Below the pieces are notes generated by a model. That model did not search any database. It was given only the letters and a program-made list of their open reading frames with translations, and was not told the DNA's origin. Positions 43,176 to 60,742 of a DNA stretch of 64,000 nucleotides are shown here, piece by piece; position 1 is the first letter of the stretch, and every line of letters starts with the position of its first letter. Both the position numbers and the translations under genes were made by a program. This DNA is from Spirochaetota bacterium (lineage in GTDB: Bacteria > Spirochaetota > UBA4802 > JAFGJZ01): the NCBI GenBank assembly GCA_027858855.1, contig JAQIBV010000008.1, forward strand, positions 1 to 64,000. Direction: 5' to 3'.

Positions 43176-43527
43176 GGGGACGCCTTGGTTTCGACTGCTC
43201 TGTTGTTGTTGTAATTGCATGCCGATTGCGCTGGCACATCGTAAAAATGTCAGACCTAATTGTAATTGCAGATGAAAATCTAGCATTAGCTGCCTAATAG
43301 TGTAGCTACGTCACATAGATTGCCCTCCTTCGGCGGTTTATTTGACGACATTGATGAAGGATAGTTTGTCTCATCTTCACTCGTGAGGCAGGCGAAATAA
43401 CAGAGTGACAGGTTTCAGGTAGGGTCTTCTGTTCTCCGGCCTGTAACTTAAATTAAATGAATGGAATAAGCATGTAGACGTTGCTTCAATGAATTGCAGG
43501 ACGCGGGTTCGATCCCCGCCGTCTCCA
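43176..43527 (+). ncRNA. ssrA: tmRNA
   Basis: About 352 bases, one-piece tmRNA that rescues stalled ribosomes. The 5' end GGGGACGCCTTGGTTTCGAC is the conserved tRNA-like start and pairs (GGGGACG/CGTCTCC) with the 3' end GGTTCGATCCCCGCCGTCTC, which contains the T-loop. CCA is not encoded (CACAG follows). The tag frame starts at the resume codon GCA 43268: ADENLALAA, 9 residues, followed by TAA TAG. An A four bases before the resume codon fits the rule. The 3' end of ssrA is a common integration site, and the accessory remnants start about 100 bases downstream. Confidence 0.97.
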
Positions 43528-43630
43528 CAGATTTTTTAACAATCCGATCACGGTTTTTGGCTGATTTCTACTTGGTCAAGGATGGTGGTTTTTTTGTTAA
43601 AAATATATCTGAACTAAGAAAGGTATAACA

Positions 43631-54145: not shown

Positions 54146-54650
54146 TTTTTTTCAATTGTTATGGTGTTTATCTTAAAAGCAAAAGCGATTTTCTGTTTAA
54201 GGTGATTTATTTGCAATTGCTAATTTCAATTATTACCAAAAAAGATAGGATTGAAATCGAAAAAAAATTAAACGAACTTCCTTAACAGAATTAGTGTCAC
54301 TTGTAATTATAATCTTGTATTTTGTTGCCCAAAAGACCTATTTGTGATATTCTAATAATAGTGAACTTCGAAAAAATTTTGGTTTACGCTATTTGCAATC
54401 GTTTTGCTGTTTCAGGTCTGTATTCGTGCGATGATTACTTGTCAGATATCAAAGCAGCAGCATCGCAGAGTCAACCGGAGCTTGTAGATTCCATTTCTGG
54501 TGACACCTGCACATTCCAGACAACAAATATTGGGGATGTAGATAGTTCGCATGGTTCGCCCATTTTTACACCTGTTATTATGTGGAAGGCGCACCTACCA
54601 GTGTTTAAAAGGATGTAACCGGTTCATTTGAAGTTTTAAATTGACCGGCT
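54146..54650. other. Degenerate region, no intact gene
   Basis: 505 bases. An open stretch ending at TAA 54616-54618 includes SGDTCTFQTTNIGDVDSSHG and SPIFTPVIMWKAHLPVFKRM. It is protein-like in composition but has no start signal and no family that I recognise; it may be part of the same dead gene as the GH5 stub that follows. Confidence 0.35.
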
Positions 54651-54977: not shown

Positions 54978-55862
54978 ATGCCTAAAAGAACGTGTCAAAG
55001 TGTAGTTAGGGGAAAGAATGCTGTCGATGGCGCGGGGGTGCATCTGCGACGAGTTTTGGGATATAATACGATAAAGGATTTTGATCCGTTTCTGATGCTG
55101 GATGGATTCGATTCGAATGACCCTGAAGACTATATTAAGGGCTTTCCTTGGCATCCTCACCGGGGTATTGAAACTGTGACCTATCTACTCGATGGAAAGA
55201 TCGAACATGGGGATTCGCTGGGTAATGAGGGCTCTATAAACGAGCTTCAATGCCAATGGATGACTGCCGGTTCCGGAATCATTCACCAGGAGATGCCGCA
55301 AGCATCAGAAAGGATGTTAGGTTGTCAGCTATGGGTCAACCTTCCCAAAAGCGACAAGATGACAGAACCGGCCTATCGGGACATAAAGAAAGAGGATGTT
55401 AAAGCTATTGCGGATCAGTCTGCACTGGTTAGGGTTCTCTCGGGCACCTACCAGGGGGTGTCCGGTGCCGTTAAAGGAGAGTATATTCCGGTACAGTATC
55501 TTGATATAGATCTGCAACCCGATAGTGTCTGGAGTTATAACGAGACACCAAATGATCATACTCTGTTTATCTATCTTATTGACGGAACGCTTGCAGCGGA
55601 TGATTCTCTGTGTGATTACCAGGAGAAAGGGTGTGCCATCTTGATGTCGGCATCATCGAATGATGATTCCGGTTATGATGAGGTTATTGTGAAGTCGCAA
55701 GACAAGGGAGCCCGCTTTTTTATTATTGCAGCTAAGCCATTAAAAGAGCCAGTAGCCTGGGGCGGGCCAATTGTCATGAACAGCAAAGAAGAGTTAGATC
55801 AGGCCTTTAAAGATCTGGATAACAATACATTTATAAAACACTCCCACCCTAAAAAATTATAA
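54978..55862 (+). CDS. Pirin-family protein
   Basis: 294 residues, double cupin. Metal ligands are in the first cupin: GFPWHPHRGIETVTYLLDGK with E in the following HGDSLGNEGSINELQCQWM and GSGIIHQEMP. The second half (VQYLDIDLQPDSVWSY, LIDGTLAADDSLCDYQEKGC) is the second cupin. Pirins act as quercetin dioxygenases, regulators or stress proteins; function here is open. GGAGG ribosome site 6 bases upstream. A terminator-type repeat closes the unit 24 bases after the stop. Confidence 0.93.
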   Translation: MPKRTCQSVVRGKNAVDGAGVHLRRVLGYNTIKDFDPFLMLDGFDSNDPEDYIKGFPWHPHRGIETVTYLLDGKIEHGDSLGNEGSINELQCQWMTAGSGIIHQEMPQASERMLGCQLWVNLPKSDKMTEPAYRDIKKEDVKAIADQSALVRVLSGTYQGVSGAVKGEYIPVQYLDIDLQPDSVWSYNETPNDHTLFIYLIDGTLAADDSLCDYQEKGCAILMSASSNDDSGYDEVIVKSQDKGARFFIIAAKPLKEPVAWGGPIVMNSKEELDQAFKDLDNNTFIKHSHPKKL

Positions 55863-55885
55863 GCTAAAATATTTGCGCTTATAAA

Positions 55886-55928
55886 GCAGACATTGAGCTG
55901 TCCTTAAAGATCAATGTCTGCGTTTTTT
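55886..55928 (+). terminator. Terminator of the pirin gene, part of repeat copy 1
   Basis: GCAGACATTGA (55886-55896) pairs exactly with TCAATGTCTGC (55911-55921) over a 14-base loop, and is followed by G and six T. The same layout recurs at 60593-60640. Confidence 0.8.
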
Positions 55929-56020
55929 CGAGCTTTACGAGAAAAATTATCCTATAAAGCTAAAAGAAATCGCTGTCCTCAAAGCGACATTTAGCGTTTT
56001 TTCGAGCCTCGCGAGAAAGG
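55886..56020. repeat. Structured repeat family, copies 1 and 2
   Basis: Copy 1 spans 55886-55953 and copy 2 spans about 55968-56020. Shared parts, in order: a stem with TCCTTAAAG (copy 2 TCCTCAAAG) in its loop, GCGTTTTTTCGAGC, a short spacer, and CGAGAAA. The last part can fold as TTTC-GA-GC / GC-GA-GAAA, with two facing GA/GA mismatches. The rest of 55863-56227 has no gene. Confidence 0.75.
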
Positions 56021-56227
56021 TTCGAGTAATTAATAGAAGTTTTCAATAGACTGAATTTTTACAAATGCTTGGCATTGACGAATAAGTCTCAGAAGATTTT
56101 TATTGGATTAAGGTCTTGCAAAAATTTCCATAATAATTATCACGGAATAGTCGCTTCTCGGGTATAAATGCATTGTCGTTGTATTGTAAAAATTATGGAA
56201 TTACTCTAAAAAAGGTTAGGTGTATCA

Positions 56228-56821
56228 ATGAAATTATTACTGAACGAGAACAACTATGGAAGAAGATATCGTATGTTTCTATATCAATTTCCATTGCTAT
56301 TAATTGTAGTTTCAATCCTCATTGCATTCGGGTATCACAGTCTGGGTGTTGTTCATGCAAACGGCGATCTGACTACAATTCTCGGTGCTGACTTGCTTAC
56401 GACATCTTTTTTTCAGGGTTCCATAACAGCTGTGATTCTCTATTTCGGTAAGAGTAGAGCTATGGAAAGAATCTTCAAACAAAATCCTTCCGATTTTTCA
56501 GAAGAAGAGGTTCTGGGGTTTATGCCATGTGTATATGGTGTCTGGCCCTATCAATATCATGGCGGCTTTTTGACAGTCGAAGGTACTGCTTTAAGATTGT
56601 ATCTTAAAAAAGTTGGTGGTTTTGTAATGGCTCATGAATGGAAGAACTGTTCCATGGTAAAATTTGAGGCAGTCAGGGAGCCAATGAATCCTTTTCTTCC
56701 TTTGATCTTTAATATCACAAAAAGTATTAGGATTTCGGATGGTCAAAAATCAAAAAAAATACTGTTTTCAGAACCGGAAGAGACGGTTATAGAGTTAAAT
56801 CGTTTTGTGAAGAGCATTTAA
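56228..56821 (+). CDS. Membrane protein with two N-terminal spans, unknown function
   Basis: 197 residues. Two membrane helices (FPLLLIVVSILIAFGYHSLG and LLTTSFFQGSITAVILYFGK) are followed by a soluble domain (100-197) with strand-like segments YHGGFLTVEGTALRLYLKKV and ITKSIRISDGQKSKKILFSE, consistent with a PH/GRAM-like fold. No family assigned. AGG-type ribosome site (TTAGG). It stands alone between the repeat copies and the DinB gene. Confidence 0.62.
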   Translation: MKLLLNENNYGRRYRMFLYQFPLLLIVVSILIAFGYHSLGVVHANGDLTTILGADLLTTSFFQGSITAVILYFGKSRAMERIFKQNPSDFSEEEVLGFMPCVYGVWPYQYHGGFLTVEGTALRLYLKKVGGFVMAHEWKNCSMVKFEAVREPMNPFLPLIFNITKSIRISDGQKSKKILFSEPEETVIELNRFVKSI

Positions 56822-56948
56822 AGAGTATTTAGAAGAGTAGAATAGGTACTAAAACGATGATACTCTCCGAAATTTAGAAATTTTTTCAAAATTCTCTTCT
56901 ATCGGTTCATAATTATAGGGATCTGTCTATTGATCAATATAGTTGCAG

Positions 56949-57473
56949 TTAAATATGGAACCCTGAATATTCAGGAGTGAAGGGGGCAGACCATTTGTTC
57001 AAGATATCCCAGTTTAGTAATGACATTTGCCTGATGTGAAATAGGTCATGACCAATCCATGATGCGATGAGATCACCTGCATGCATCTCAATATTTTTTA
57101 ATCCATTACCTAAGTGCATCGAATAAAGGTCTGGATTCTTCAAATCTTTCAATAAGTTAATTGATGCGGTTCTCTCTTTTTCAAAATTTTGAAGAGAAGC
57201 TTTCACATCTCTTTCATTATATTTTCGTGATGTTATCCATTCCATTTCATTAAATGAGGGCCAATCTTTGCTGGGTTCAAATAAAATAAGATTAAAATTA
57301 TATCGAAAGTCCTCAGTTTCTATGTCAGTAAGATGATTCAAAACTTCAAGCAAAGACCATCTGTCTTTTTTCGGTTTCCAGGCAGCTTGTTCCTGGCTTA
57401 CATTTTTTAACAGATTTTTGACTATGTTTTTATTTGCCTCTAATTGTAGAATACTCATTTGAAGTTCAATCAT
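56949..57473 (-). CDS. DinB-family protein
   Basis: 174 residues from ATG 57473, with AGGA upstream. Four-helix bundle metalloprotein family: WKPKKDRWSLLEVLNHLTDI carries the first His, and HAGDLIASWIGHDLFHIRQM the last two, the usual three-His metal site (H-x47-H-x3-H style). DinB/YfiT proteins act in thiol or glutathione-like transfer reactions or stress response; this one is not further assignable. An in-frame extension of 31 codons upstream lacks a ribosome site. Confidence 0.88.
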   Translation of the reverse strand: MIELQMSILQLEANKNIVKNLLKNVSQEQAAWKPKKDRWSLLEVLNHLTDIETEDFRYNFNLILFEPSKDWPSFNEMEWITSRKYNERDVKASLQNFEKERTASINLLKDLKNPDLYSMHLGNGLKNIEMHAGDLIASWIGHDLFHIRQMSLLNWDILNKWSAPFTPEYSGFHI

Positions 57474-58275
57474 TTTCTGTCCTTTGTTTAAGCGTTTTGT
57501 ATATTGCGTTCTCGCTATCAGATGTCTTTCCTTTTGTTCGTCGGTCTGCTCATCCTGTGAAAACATCCCATCCCATCTTGATTTAGATCATATTTTTTTA
57601 AATCTTTTTCATATTTATAATCATCTCGCAAGAGAATATTATCAAATTAGCAAATTCTACTAATGTTCCGGCAAGATTCTGATATAATTAGAACCTACGC
57701 AACAAAATATTTTAACCTTACCGCGAAATCAGGATATTATGTCGCATCAAACCGCAAAAAACCTCAGGAAGTCTATAAAAAACGTCACCGTCCCCAATAA
57801 GGCTCCATAAGGCTCCAAGTTTATAAAGAAATATTCGATGCTGATGGTTATTTGATCTCATCTGAAGGTGAGGGCGGTAATTTCTATTATGACACTTATT
57901 GCGATTATGACTATTCCGCGTCTATTAACGCATTAATACAGGTGACAGATGCTACTCTTGCCTTGAAATAAATTAAAACTCCTCTATAAATATATTTGTA
58001 GAAACTCTAAATTGTTGCATCACCACCTTGTCAGAGCTGATGATTAGCTTAAGTTTCTATCTGTTTTAATAAAACTTTTGTAACTTCCTGAAGTGATTTG
58101 AAAAAGATGTAAAATGTTTTGTAGTGAAGTCTCCCTTGTTCGCAAAACAGTCCTCTATTTCTGGACATCGACCGGGAATGTGGTATTATATAATATGTAG
58201 AACTATTTCTTGACAGAAATTGATATTTCAAAAGATGCTTCGATAAGAATTACTGTTTTAGATAGTGGGTGTTAT
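57474..58275. other. Long region with gene debris, no intact gene
   Basis: 802 bases between the DinB and chemoreceptor genes. A frame 57822-57971 reads YKEIFDADGYLISSEGEGGN and FYYDTYCDYDYSASINALIQ, like the end of a secreted protein; in front of it the ten bases TAAGGCTCCA occur twice in tandem (57798-57817), introducing stops. A TATAAT at 58189-58194 could be the -10 of the chemoreceptor promoter, but TGGACA lies 21 bases before it, which is too far. Confidence 0.4.
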
Positions 58276-60381
58276 ATGAAAAAAATGAAGTCTATAAAAT
58301 CGCGTTACATTTCAATTGCGTACATTGTTACAGCACTTCTTATATGTGTATCTGTAGTTAGTGCGGGTTCCGTTGGTTTTATAATATCCAACTATCTTTT
58401 ACAGAACATAACAGACAATGCTGTCAATGGTGCAAAAACTGTTATTGAAAAGATAGAGCAGAACCATACTACTCAGGTTTCCATGATAACAACTCTTGGT
58501 TCTTCAATTGCACGCATGGTCGAAGTCGAACATAAAAAACCTGCCCCTTCGGAAAACAGTGCTGATTATTATCAGAATGTTCTTGAGAAGTATGAAAAGG
58601 AATTTCAGATTTATCTTGAGAATTCGCCTGGGTTTATTCACAGCATCTATTTATACTACGATGTTGAATATACTAATTATACCCATAATCTGAAACTGTT
58701 TCGCCGTGATGATGAGATAGTAGTACAGTATAATGAAAGCAGGGCGAATTATGATGCAATATCCGGAGCAGAGGGAAGTCGTAACTGGTATCACACTGTT
58801 AAGATGGAAACTCATGGACCTACCTGGATTACCGGTTCATATGACAGGCAGGAGAATCTTATATCCCCCTTTCTTGTTCCTGTGTACGATGGAGATGAGC
58901 TTGTCTGTATTGTAGGGATTGACCTGAATTTGAATGCTTTTACAAAGATGGTCGGTGAGCAGACCCTGTTTGAAACTGGATATGTCTTTCTTCTTGATAA
59001 TGAGGGAGTTGTTGTAATACACAAACAGGCTCCCATGCTGGATACGCTTGGCGCAACAGTGCATGCCGCCGAAGGTAATCTTGATGAGATAATTGCCAAT
59101 AATGATAGTGGCGAGGTAATTAATGTAGCCTCGAGTGTTAAGGGGGAGTATTTCCTTTTTAAACGCCTTAGCAACGGCTGGACTGTCGGCGGTACCTATT
59201 ATATGAACGAGGTCACCTCAAGTTATGATACTGTTAAGATCTTTATTCTGGTTGTAATAGCCTCTGTTATTGGGCTTATCTTTCTGCTTTCAATATTTCT
59301 GCAGCGTCTGATTAAGAAAAAAATGGATATGGTTCTCGATGTCCTTGACTCTGTAAAAAGAGGTGATTTCACCAAGCGGGTGGACATTAAAACCAATAAC
59401 GAGATTGGTATACTCAGTGAAGGTATTAACCGTATGATCGAAGAGATTAGGGTTCTTGTTTCCAACGTTAGTACAGTAAGTAACTATGTTGCTGAAACGT
59501 CCGAAAGTCTTGGAGAATCCATGAATCAGACAGATGAAGTTTTTAAACGGATTCAGGGTTCTGTTCAAAAAATTAATGACGATATTATGGCTCAGGCAAC
59601 ATCAACGGAAGAGATTTCGGCTTCCATGGATAACTTTCGCATCAGTTTTCGTCATCTGAATACAATTAGCAATGCTGTTGCGTCAGAGGCTGATGATGCT
59701 GTTAAGAAAAATGATCAGTGGATGCAAAATATTCAAGTTCTTGGCGAGACCTCTCAAAAGCGGATATCCTCAACCGAGGATGTTGAAACTTCCATCAATC
59801 AGCTTGGGCAACGTGCCCGTGAAATTAATGCTATAGTCGGTATCATTTCTGATATTGTTGAACAGACAAATCTTCTTGCCTTAAATGCCAGCATTGAGGC
59901 CGCCCGTGCCGGAGAGACTGGAAAGGGCTTTGCCGTTGTAGCCGAAGAGGTTAGATCTCTTGCCGAGCAGTCACAAAAAGAGGCTTCAAATATTCAGCAG
60001 ATTGTGAATAATATTAATGACGAGACAACAAATACTGCGACTTATTTAAGCTATCTTCGAGAAAACACACGAAAAGAGAAAGAAGCTTTAATAAATGCCG
60101 ATCTGATTTTTAAAGAGATTTATAGTTCTTTTGATCTTATTACACAGAAAATTCAGGATCTTAATGCAAAAATAGATGATATGAATCGAATACAAGAGAA
60201 CGTTTCCCGAGGGGTTTCGGGAATATCCGATTCTGCTGATCAGAATGCATTATCGGTTGAAAGTATTTCAGCTTCGGTAAATGACGAGGGTGAAATAATA
60301 AAGCAGATATCCGATAATGCCAGCGAACTGAAAAAACTATCGGTCGAGCTTCGTGATGTTATAGGTCGATTTGTTATGTAG
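58276..60381 (+). CDS. Methyl-accepting chemotaxis protein with dCache sensor
   Basis: 701 residues from ATG 58276. TM1 at about 10-40, double Cache sensor at 45-325 ([55 protein letters not shown]), TM2 ([20 protein letters not shown]), HAMP ([20 protein letters not shown] region) and a signalling domain with the hairpin tip [30 protein letters not shown]. It reports an external ligand, likely a small organic or amino acid as in other dCache receptors, to CheA/CheW. An in-frame extension to TTG 58210 lacks a ribosome site. There is no pentapeptide tether for CheR at the end. Confidence 0.95.
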
Positions 60382-60441
60382 GTGCTGATTTCTTACTATA
60401 GATTTTTCTTTCATTGAGACCTCATCCCAGGCTTTCGCCGC

Positions 60442-60464
60442 CCCTTCTCCTCAAAGGAGAAGGG
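60442..60464. repeat. GC-rich hairpin of the CCCTTCTCC/GGAGAAGGG type
   Basis: CCCTTCTCC, TCAAA, GGAGAAGGG: a perfect 9-bp stem preceded by CTCATCCCAGG. Such hairpins with this flank occur as dispersed repeats in many bacterial genomes. No T-run on the plus strand. Confidence 0.6.
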
Positions 60465-60522
60465 TGCTCAAATCTTATTTGAAACCTTACCCGGGCTCTG
60501 TTGCGTTTTTCTCCAATTTAAC

Positions 60523-60556
60523 CCGACCAACCGGCCACCTGCTGGTCGGTTTTTTG
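60523..60556 (+). terminator. Intrinsic terminator after the chemoreceptor gene
   Basis: CCGACCA (60523-60529) pairs with TGGTCGG (60543-60549); seven T follow. The 13-base loop contains CCGGCCACC. It lies 142 bases behind the chemoreceptor stop. Confidence 0.75.
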
Positions 60557-60592
60557 TGCTTTTCGAGCGTTAATGAAAAAAATTATCAATAA

Positions 60593-60666
60593 GCAGAAAC
60601 ATTTGCGCTATCCTTAAAGCGAAAGATTTCTGCGTTTTTTCGAGCCCTGCGAGAAAAATTATCCTT
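60593..60666. repeat. Structured repeat family, copy 3
   Basis: GCAGAAA (60593-60599) pairs with TTTCTGC (60627-60633); TCCTTAAAG in the loop, then G, six T, CGAGC, CCT, GCGAGAAAAATTATCC. It agrees with copy 1 in all shared segments although the stem sequence differs, so the pairing is kept by compensating change. A broken copy lies just before (about 60557-60590). No gene is seen in 60382-60742. Confidence 0.75.
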
Positions 60667-60742
60667 ATACAGGCACTTAAAACTGGGTGATCATCTGAAG
60701 CATTATAGTTTTTCGAGGTTTACGGATGTAAACTGCTGTCGC

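Follow-up and report, generated by a model that had tools for sequence, protein, structure and literature searches.

An amplified, intrinsic-terminator-like repeat with a tandem-GA tail hairpin in two genomes of one Spirochaetota genus

The first 64,000 nucleotides of contig JAQIBV010000008.1 from a Spirochaetota bacterium (assembly GCA_027858855.1, forward strand; hereafter the window) hold three copies of a short repeat, here called TERM, in which a terminator-like hairpin (H1) and a T tract are followed by a second hairpin (H2) where GA can face GA, raising the question of what such an element is and how it came to be repeated. The copies sit where a first-pass annotation, made from the sequence alone, had placed them, and their core, GCGTTTTTTCGAGC-NNNN-CGAGAAA, is exact at 55920, 55994 and 60632. 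At up to three mismatches this core has no match in 100 shuffled windows; a shorter pattern covering H2 only is less telling, giving at least three matches at that tolerance in six of 100 shuffles, with the window's three all exact. Our best reading is that TERM is a genus-specific, amplified, intrinsic-terminator-like cassette, closest to the pneumococcal repeats SPRITE and BOX. The copies belong to a family with a covarying structure, associated with a miniature inverted-repeat transposable element (MITE) that makes target duplications.

A degenerate pattern with at most two mismatches matched 40 times in this genome (G000), against five matches for the reversed pattern. The first covariance model (R1) was built from 27 units; its RNAalifold consensus fails to pair H1 properly, so a second model (R2) was built with a structure that we specified. 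R1 gave 76 matches in G000 at E ≤ 0.1, with the best 150 of 2551 candidates scored. Across 59 relatives, with 78 candidates scored per genome, there were 68 covariance-model matches at E ≤ 0.01 in G000, 32 in G001 (the single same-genus genome among the relatives returned) and none in the other 57; the further copies on which the annotation had staked its proposal are thus abundant in this genome. R2 at E ≤ 0.05 yielded 77 matches in G000 and 48 in G001 (150 candidates scored in each), and none in two genomes of the same family. Searched at shallow depth, 392 genomes of the phylum yielded the same two only, although with 13 candidates scored in each the 390 negatives are weak. Some units stand in tandem, at a spacing of about 76 bp, or of 36 bp where H1 is missing. 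Several contigs end in or near TERM or the MITE (C1, C36, C53, C62 and C63 of G000; C10 and C84 of G001), and all copy numbers are for that reason lower bounds.

A TERM unit consists of H1, with a variable stem and the loop RUCYUYAA, then about six T, then H2, typically in the order AATAAGC, H1, GC, T6, H2, TTATC. Over 75 distinct H1 arm pairs (99 rows, a few with misplaced loops) the loop is mostly G/A-T-C-C/T-T-T/C-A-A, and by eye RTCCTTAA, as in this loop, recurs directly 3′ of H2 in many copies. The stems themselves vary: among 26 diverse units, nine of the 11 H1 pairs are changed on both sides. For the whole structure in these units, 92.3% of cells are paired against 76.8% in shuffles, and 65 cells are changed on both sides against 23.4 (0 of 500 shuffles as high in either case), while sliding the pairing partners scores far lower than the proposed structure; it is these compensatory changes that support it. 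H1 has a median energy of -16.1 kcal/mol in the 61 units scored, and 50 of 61 have at least five T in the first eight bases after the stem, a count to be read knowing that the pattern by which units were picked already demands TTT.

Folding of the window copies bears out the annotation's view that their stems differ yet stay paired. The predicted folds of copies 1 and 3 far surpass those of shuffles (z -5.56 and z -3.12, respectively); copy 2, taken with its full 5′ arm, folds into H1 and H2, not clearly beyond shuffles (z -1.07; 34 of 200 as good). The loop is conserved among the copies as had been proposed, but its letters are TCCTYAAAG rather than TCCTTAAAG, and copy 2 reads TCCTCAAAG.

The typical form of H2 is UUUC-GA-GC-loop-GC-GA-GAAA. 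We compared 55 distinct H2 segments from both species, picked by a score biased towards the GA register, and the register test leans that way in consequence. At the GA positions 40 have GA facing GA, nine have Watson-Crick replacements (six GG/CC and one each of GA/TC, GC/GC and TC/GA) and six have other combinations. Tandem GA or standard pairs fill these positions in 50 of 55 (shuffled mean 37.9) and the inner pairs are standard in 104 of 110 (shuffled mean 92.7), values that none of 5000 shuffles reached; the innermost pair is C-G in 37 segments and U-A in eight. Of the 55 loops, 48 are 2 to 5 nt long and five are 13 nt long. Several G001 units that sit in the MITE carry their own version, GAGU-GAUA-ACGA.

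In the window, GA can face GA in all three copies, as the annotation had it, the inner pairs of copy 1 then being G-C plus a C·A mismatch; the RNAfold optimum, however, for copies 1 and 3 and full-length copy 2 moves the register by two, to UUUUUUCG/CGAGAAAA including one U·G. We rejected this shifted register because its pairing over the 55 segments is barely above shuffles (217 of 5000 as high), despite the RNAfold preference. It did exceed shuffles in a separate MAFFT-aligned test (0 of 500 for score), an excess that we attribute to three GG/CC or GA/TC rows misplaced by MAFFT. The counts support the facing GA/GA as a conserved geometry that ordinary pairs can replace and that lacks a kink-turn bulge. 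Tandem sheared G·A pairs, which the annotation had linked to RNA bends and to L7Ae-type or regulatory proteins and which H2 could form, are also present in kink-turn RNAs; these are defined by a three-base bulge between the C stem and the tandem GA. H2 differs in that its GA pairs, facing each other in those 40 segments, lie in a symmetric 2×2 internal loop with no three-base bulge adjoining them, and a kink-turn of the L7Ae type was rejected on these grounds.

Hairpins of this kind also occur elsewhere. The pattern TTTTTCGAGC-N4-CGAGAAAAA is present once each in 35 stretches of other genomes from many phyla, seven of them from the metagenome-assembled genome Co_bin.216, and the fourth N is G in 24 of the 35, which gives a GC-NNN-GC hairpin with GA opposite GA. 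Two Clostridia loci hold four more GA/GA hairpins with other stems or loops, exceeding any other double mismatch outside the seeds.

Many TERM units are cargo of a modular MITE, built of a 108-bp core and other hairpin modules. The annotation had proposed a mobile or amplified terminator-type element with a structured 3′ tail, which largely holds: dozens of copies in both genomes, covarying hairpins and tandem arrays support it, as do MITE-borne copies with target-site duplications and one copy inside an apparently broken gene. What it had missed is the larger carrier. The MITE elements are short (102–396 bp) and non-coding, with the ends GGGNACCTCTAATAATTA and TTTTTCGAAGTTCCC forming an imperfect inverted repeat, and at up to three mismatches G000 has 52 left-end and 93 right-end matches (controls 1 and 6). 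Among 34 two-ended elements in the loci retrieved, 23 are flanked by exact 4-bp target duplications (in one case, at a contig end, the comparison covers three bases), against a mean of 3.8 and a maximum of nine in 2000 shuffles, and 31 have duplications with at most one mismatch. H2 is carried by 11 of the 34, and by eye TERM occupies one single place of the core; the other cargo comprises a 43-bp hairpin module, a possible three-way-junction module and a 23-bp module. Matches to the core number at least 28 in G000 and at least 24 in G001; among 39 genomes there is none beyond these two except one 31-base match. One element (G000 C31:20122-20379) contains a tandem run of four or five 43-bp modules, and the possible three-way junction, read by eye, occurs in four loci, in one of them as ACCCGTGGG/CCCACGGGT with two inner hairpins.

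Structures made of a hairpin and a U tract are established transcription terminators, and in TERM the hairpin is directly followed by the U tract, as in an intrinsic terminator. We consider it probable that TERM is an intrinsic-terminator-like cassette amplified in one genus by MITE carriage together with slippage in place. H1, a long hairpin with a fixed apical loop, would with its T6 tract terminate transcription by stopping RNA polymerase. The U tract is at the same time the 5′ arm of H2, with the usual tandem G·A pairs in its middle, so that H2 can form in RNA only after the polymerase has passed; it would therefore more likely act on read-through transcripts, as a second 3′-end barrier, or else on DNA. 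Units would spread by one route as MITE cargo, presumably through a transposase acting in trans, and by another would increase in number and become shorter where they stand, through slippage between short repeats. Copies in which H1 is lost or the loop is joined to the tail are, by eye, altered at the short direct repeats GCGCT and RTCCTTAA, which suggests slippage. Some units sit at gene ends, and at the few positions that look common to both species we infer inheritance.

Placement relative to genes was scored for 74 arrays. The array start lies within 20 nt of, or overlaps, a same-strand stop codon in 11 of 74, against three of 74 for the reversed orientation, a modest bias that may support terminator use, for some units only. 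Window copy 1 lies directly 3′ of a pirin gene, and copy 3 is flanked by genes for a chemotaxis receptor and, in convergent orientation, a DUF212 protein.

In three cases where neighbour genes match between G000 and G001, similar TERM units lie alongside, so that at least three positions look common to both species: after a gene of about 500 residues without a Pfam match (67% identity; three units versus two), upstream of a gene whose MutS_V match is weak and falls below the cut-off (61%), and close to a gene that Pfam assigns to the nitroreductases (79%). A further neighbour-gene match (L237/L026, 83%) is not claimed as a shared site, its units being different, and another (L247/L176, 78%) was left out. 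Upstream of the weak-MutS_V gene, on C4 of G000, an array of more hairpins, of the form GTGCGATTYTCGAGCGNNAGCTCGAAATCGCAC, stands among the TERM units. At the nitroreductase site both species have a reading frame of 32 residues that runs into TERM and ends there, and in G000 the sequence past the element codes for the latter half of a GNAT domain (Acetyltransf_1, 7.6e-12); Pfam matches neither the short initial pieces nor the piece downstream in G001. We read this site as a probable old insertion into an acetyltransferase gene, on the G001 side by resemblance alone. Here the two genomes agree at 84 of 85 TERM positions and at 76 of 93 in the adjacent coding piece, a difference that points to selection or recent exchange.

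Several findings weigh against the terminator reading. The stop-codon bias shrinks farther out (15 of 74 arrays versus 11 of 74 reversed within 60 nt), and arrays without such a stop are about as frequent in either orientation (26 of 74 versus 28 of 74 reversed). A terminator scan, whose loop and stem limits exclude the full H1 shape, flags none of the three window copies on the plus strand and flags the inner H1 of copy 2 on the minus strand (55988-55969). Chimeric, badly paired H1 stems occur in some MITE-borne units, several units have lost H1, and H2, lying beyond the U tract, would be absent from efficiently terminated RNA. Nor did a parent insertion sequence come to light: of the transposase families searched (PF01609 and Y1_Tnp), PF01609 has no match in G000 and one fragment in G001, and, of 42 distinct left ends, the ten that lack a right-end partner within 450 bp, four of them at contig ends, showed no transposase-like frame when judged by eye without a family search. 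Because the stop-codon bias is weak beyond 20 nt, we grade the terminator reading slightly lower, and slightly higher the possible, though unlikely, alternative of a parasitic BOX-like composite MITE, in which the hairpins serve transposition or merely persist and the likeness to a terminator is incidental. Such a parasite would account for the modular build, the tandem expansion, the target duplications and the one-genus range among the genomes searched, and MITE-linked arrays have no clear orientation to genes (four of 36 within 20 nt of a same-strand stop, versus two of 36 reversed); BOX, RUP and SPRITE are moreover judged likely parasitic in PMC3049150. It fits less well that the patterns used detect no MITE end in 38 of the 74 arrays, that the H1 loop is fixed while the stems change with compensation, and that one orthologous-looking unit is, by the figures above, far better kept than its surroundings.

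The fixed loop, kept over unrelated stems in both species, would also suit a mainly regulatory or protective RNA of the 3′ untranslated region, in which a protein binds the loop or the loop pairs with AAGGA Shine-Dalgarno-like sequences (it may resemble the anti-Shine-Dalgarno sequence) and H1 and H2 together protect or process mRNA ends. The recurrence of RTCCTTAA right after H2 and an H2 geometry conserved though terminators need none are consistent with this account, which we nevertheless regard as doubtful: shared ancestry of young copies could explain part of the loop conservation. Repetitive extragenic palindromes and the mosaic elements that they form (REP/BIME) are, like TERM, hairpin repeats clustered between genes, and movement of TERM through its hairpins by a REP-associated tyrosine (RAYT, Y1) transposase might be considered, Y1_Tnp genes being present in both genomes (two matches in G000, three in G001). 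None of these five loci, inspected with flanks of about 1.5 kb wherever the contig extends that far, matches the H1 loop or a MITE end, and three loose H2-like matches there lack the H2 arms; the 4-bp target duplications and inverted ends, which set TERM and the MITE apart from REP/RAYT, indicate another type of transposase. This origin was rejected on the Y1_Tnp flanks, and we hold it to be highly improbable. More speculatively, and with little likelihood in our view, TERM could be the founding example of a two-part RNA 3′-end element, its H1 loop a recognition site and its tandem-GA hairpin a 3′ module that recurs, as the 24 of 35 pattern hits in other genomes would suggest, independently across bacterial and archaeal phyla; the MITE would have captured TERM and spread it as a portable transcription insulator.

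Among known systems, SPRITE shares with TERM its interspersed distribution, narrow host range and a long hairpin followed by a U-rich tract; in PMC3049150 it is described as a single 18-bp duplex with a U-rich tract longer than usual. TERM, compared with it by description, differs in its fixed apical loop, short T6 tract, second tandem-GA hairpin and MITE module. BOX (boxA-boxB(n)-boxC), as portrayed in the same source (PMC3049150), resembles the MITE in having end modules with a variable number of tandem inner modules, a comparison of architecture only; unlike BOX, one inner module of the MITE is terminator-like and is also found without MITE ends. In the uptake-signal terminators of Neisseria and Pasteurellaceae, a repeated motif likewise occurs in many terminator hairpins of one lineage (PMC1852404), but there the motif is the stem, whereas in TERM the stems vary and the loop and tail are constant. 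SPRITE and BOX together would cover most of the behaviour of TERM, as a terminator-like interspersed repeat and as a modular composite with tandem inner modules. As far as our searches show, the new features are the fixed H1 loop, the covarying tandem-GA hairpin past the U tract and the combination of the two kinds in a single element; our searches, confined to open-access literature, listed no paper describing TERM by title or abstract opening. With about 100 units in two species, a terminator-like structure can be traced as cargo that moves and as a gene end that appears to be inherited, and TERM makes it possible to study whether new gene boundaries arise from small mobile repeats. The tandem-GA tail hairpin has compensatory changes beyond the U tract that termination alone does not explain, and is easily testable.

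All TERM features of the window lie on the plus strand, with H1 assigned by sequence and folding, T6 by sequence, and H2, with GA opposite GA, by pattern match and the register test. Copy 1 has H1 at 55886..55921, with a GCAGACATTGA stem and a loop containing GTCCTTAA, T6 at 55923..55928 and H2 at 55924..55946. It is preceded at 55853..55885 by a putative head remnant (AAAAATTATAAGCTAAAATATTTGCGCT..), which resembles the sequence leading from the MITE core to the first TERM in a by-eye comparison with MITE-borne copies and provides the final codons and stop of the pirin gene; the MITE core itself has no significant match to this stretch. Copy 2 has H1 at 55959..55995, T6 at 55997..56002 and H2 (GC-CTC-GC) at 55998..56018, and local alignment detects no MITE end beside copies 1 and 2. 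For copy 3 the corresponding positions are 60593..60633, 60635..60640 and 60636..60658 (GC-CCT-GC). Directly upstream of it lies a fourth unit, decayed and without H1, at about 60551-60587 (limits by eye), which is part of a 92% BLAST match of 60551-60681 to a complete element, and the stretch downstream, at 60671..60720, preserves the right end of the MITE core in decayed form (its local alignment scores 44, a value that none of 300 shuffles reached). Just upstream of the fourth unit, 60529-60551 hold a distinct hairpin, terminator-like and with a T run.

Away from the TERM copies, the minus strand at 54362-54375 carries TTTTTCGAAGTTCA, one mismatch from the MITE right end; at up to two mismatches this end has four matches in the window against 1.0 expected. 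Rfam at the gathering threshold matches no family at the TERM copies, its sole match in the window being a tmRNA gene at 43176-43530, which encodes the tag peptide ADENLALAA.

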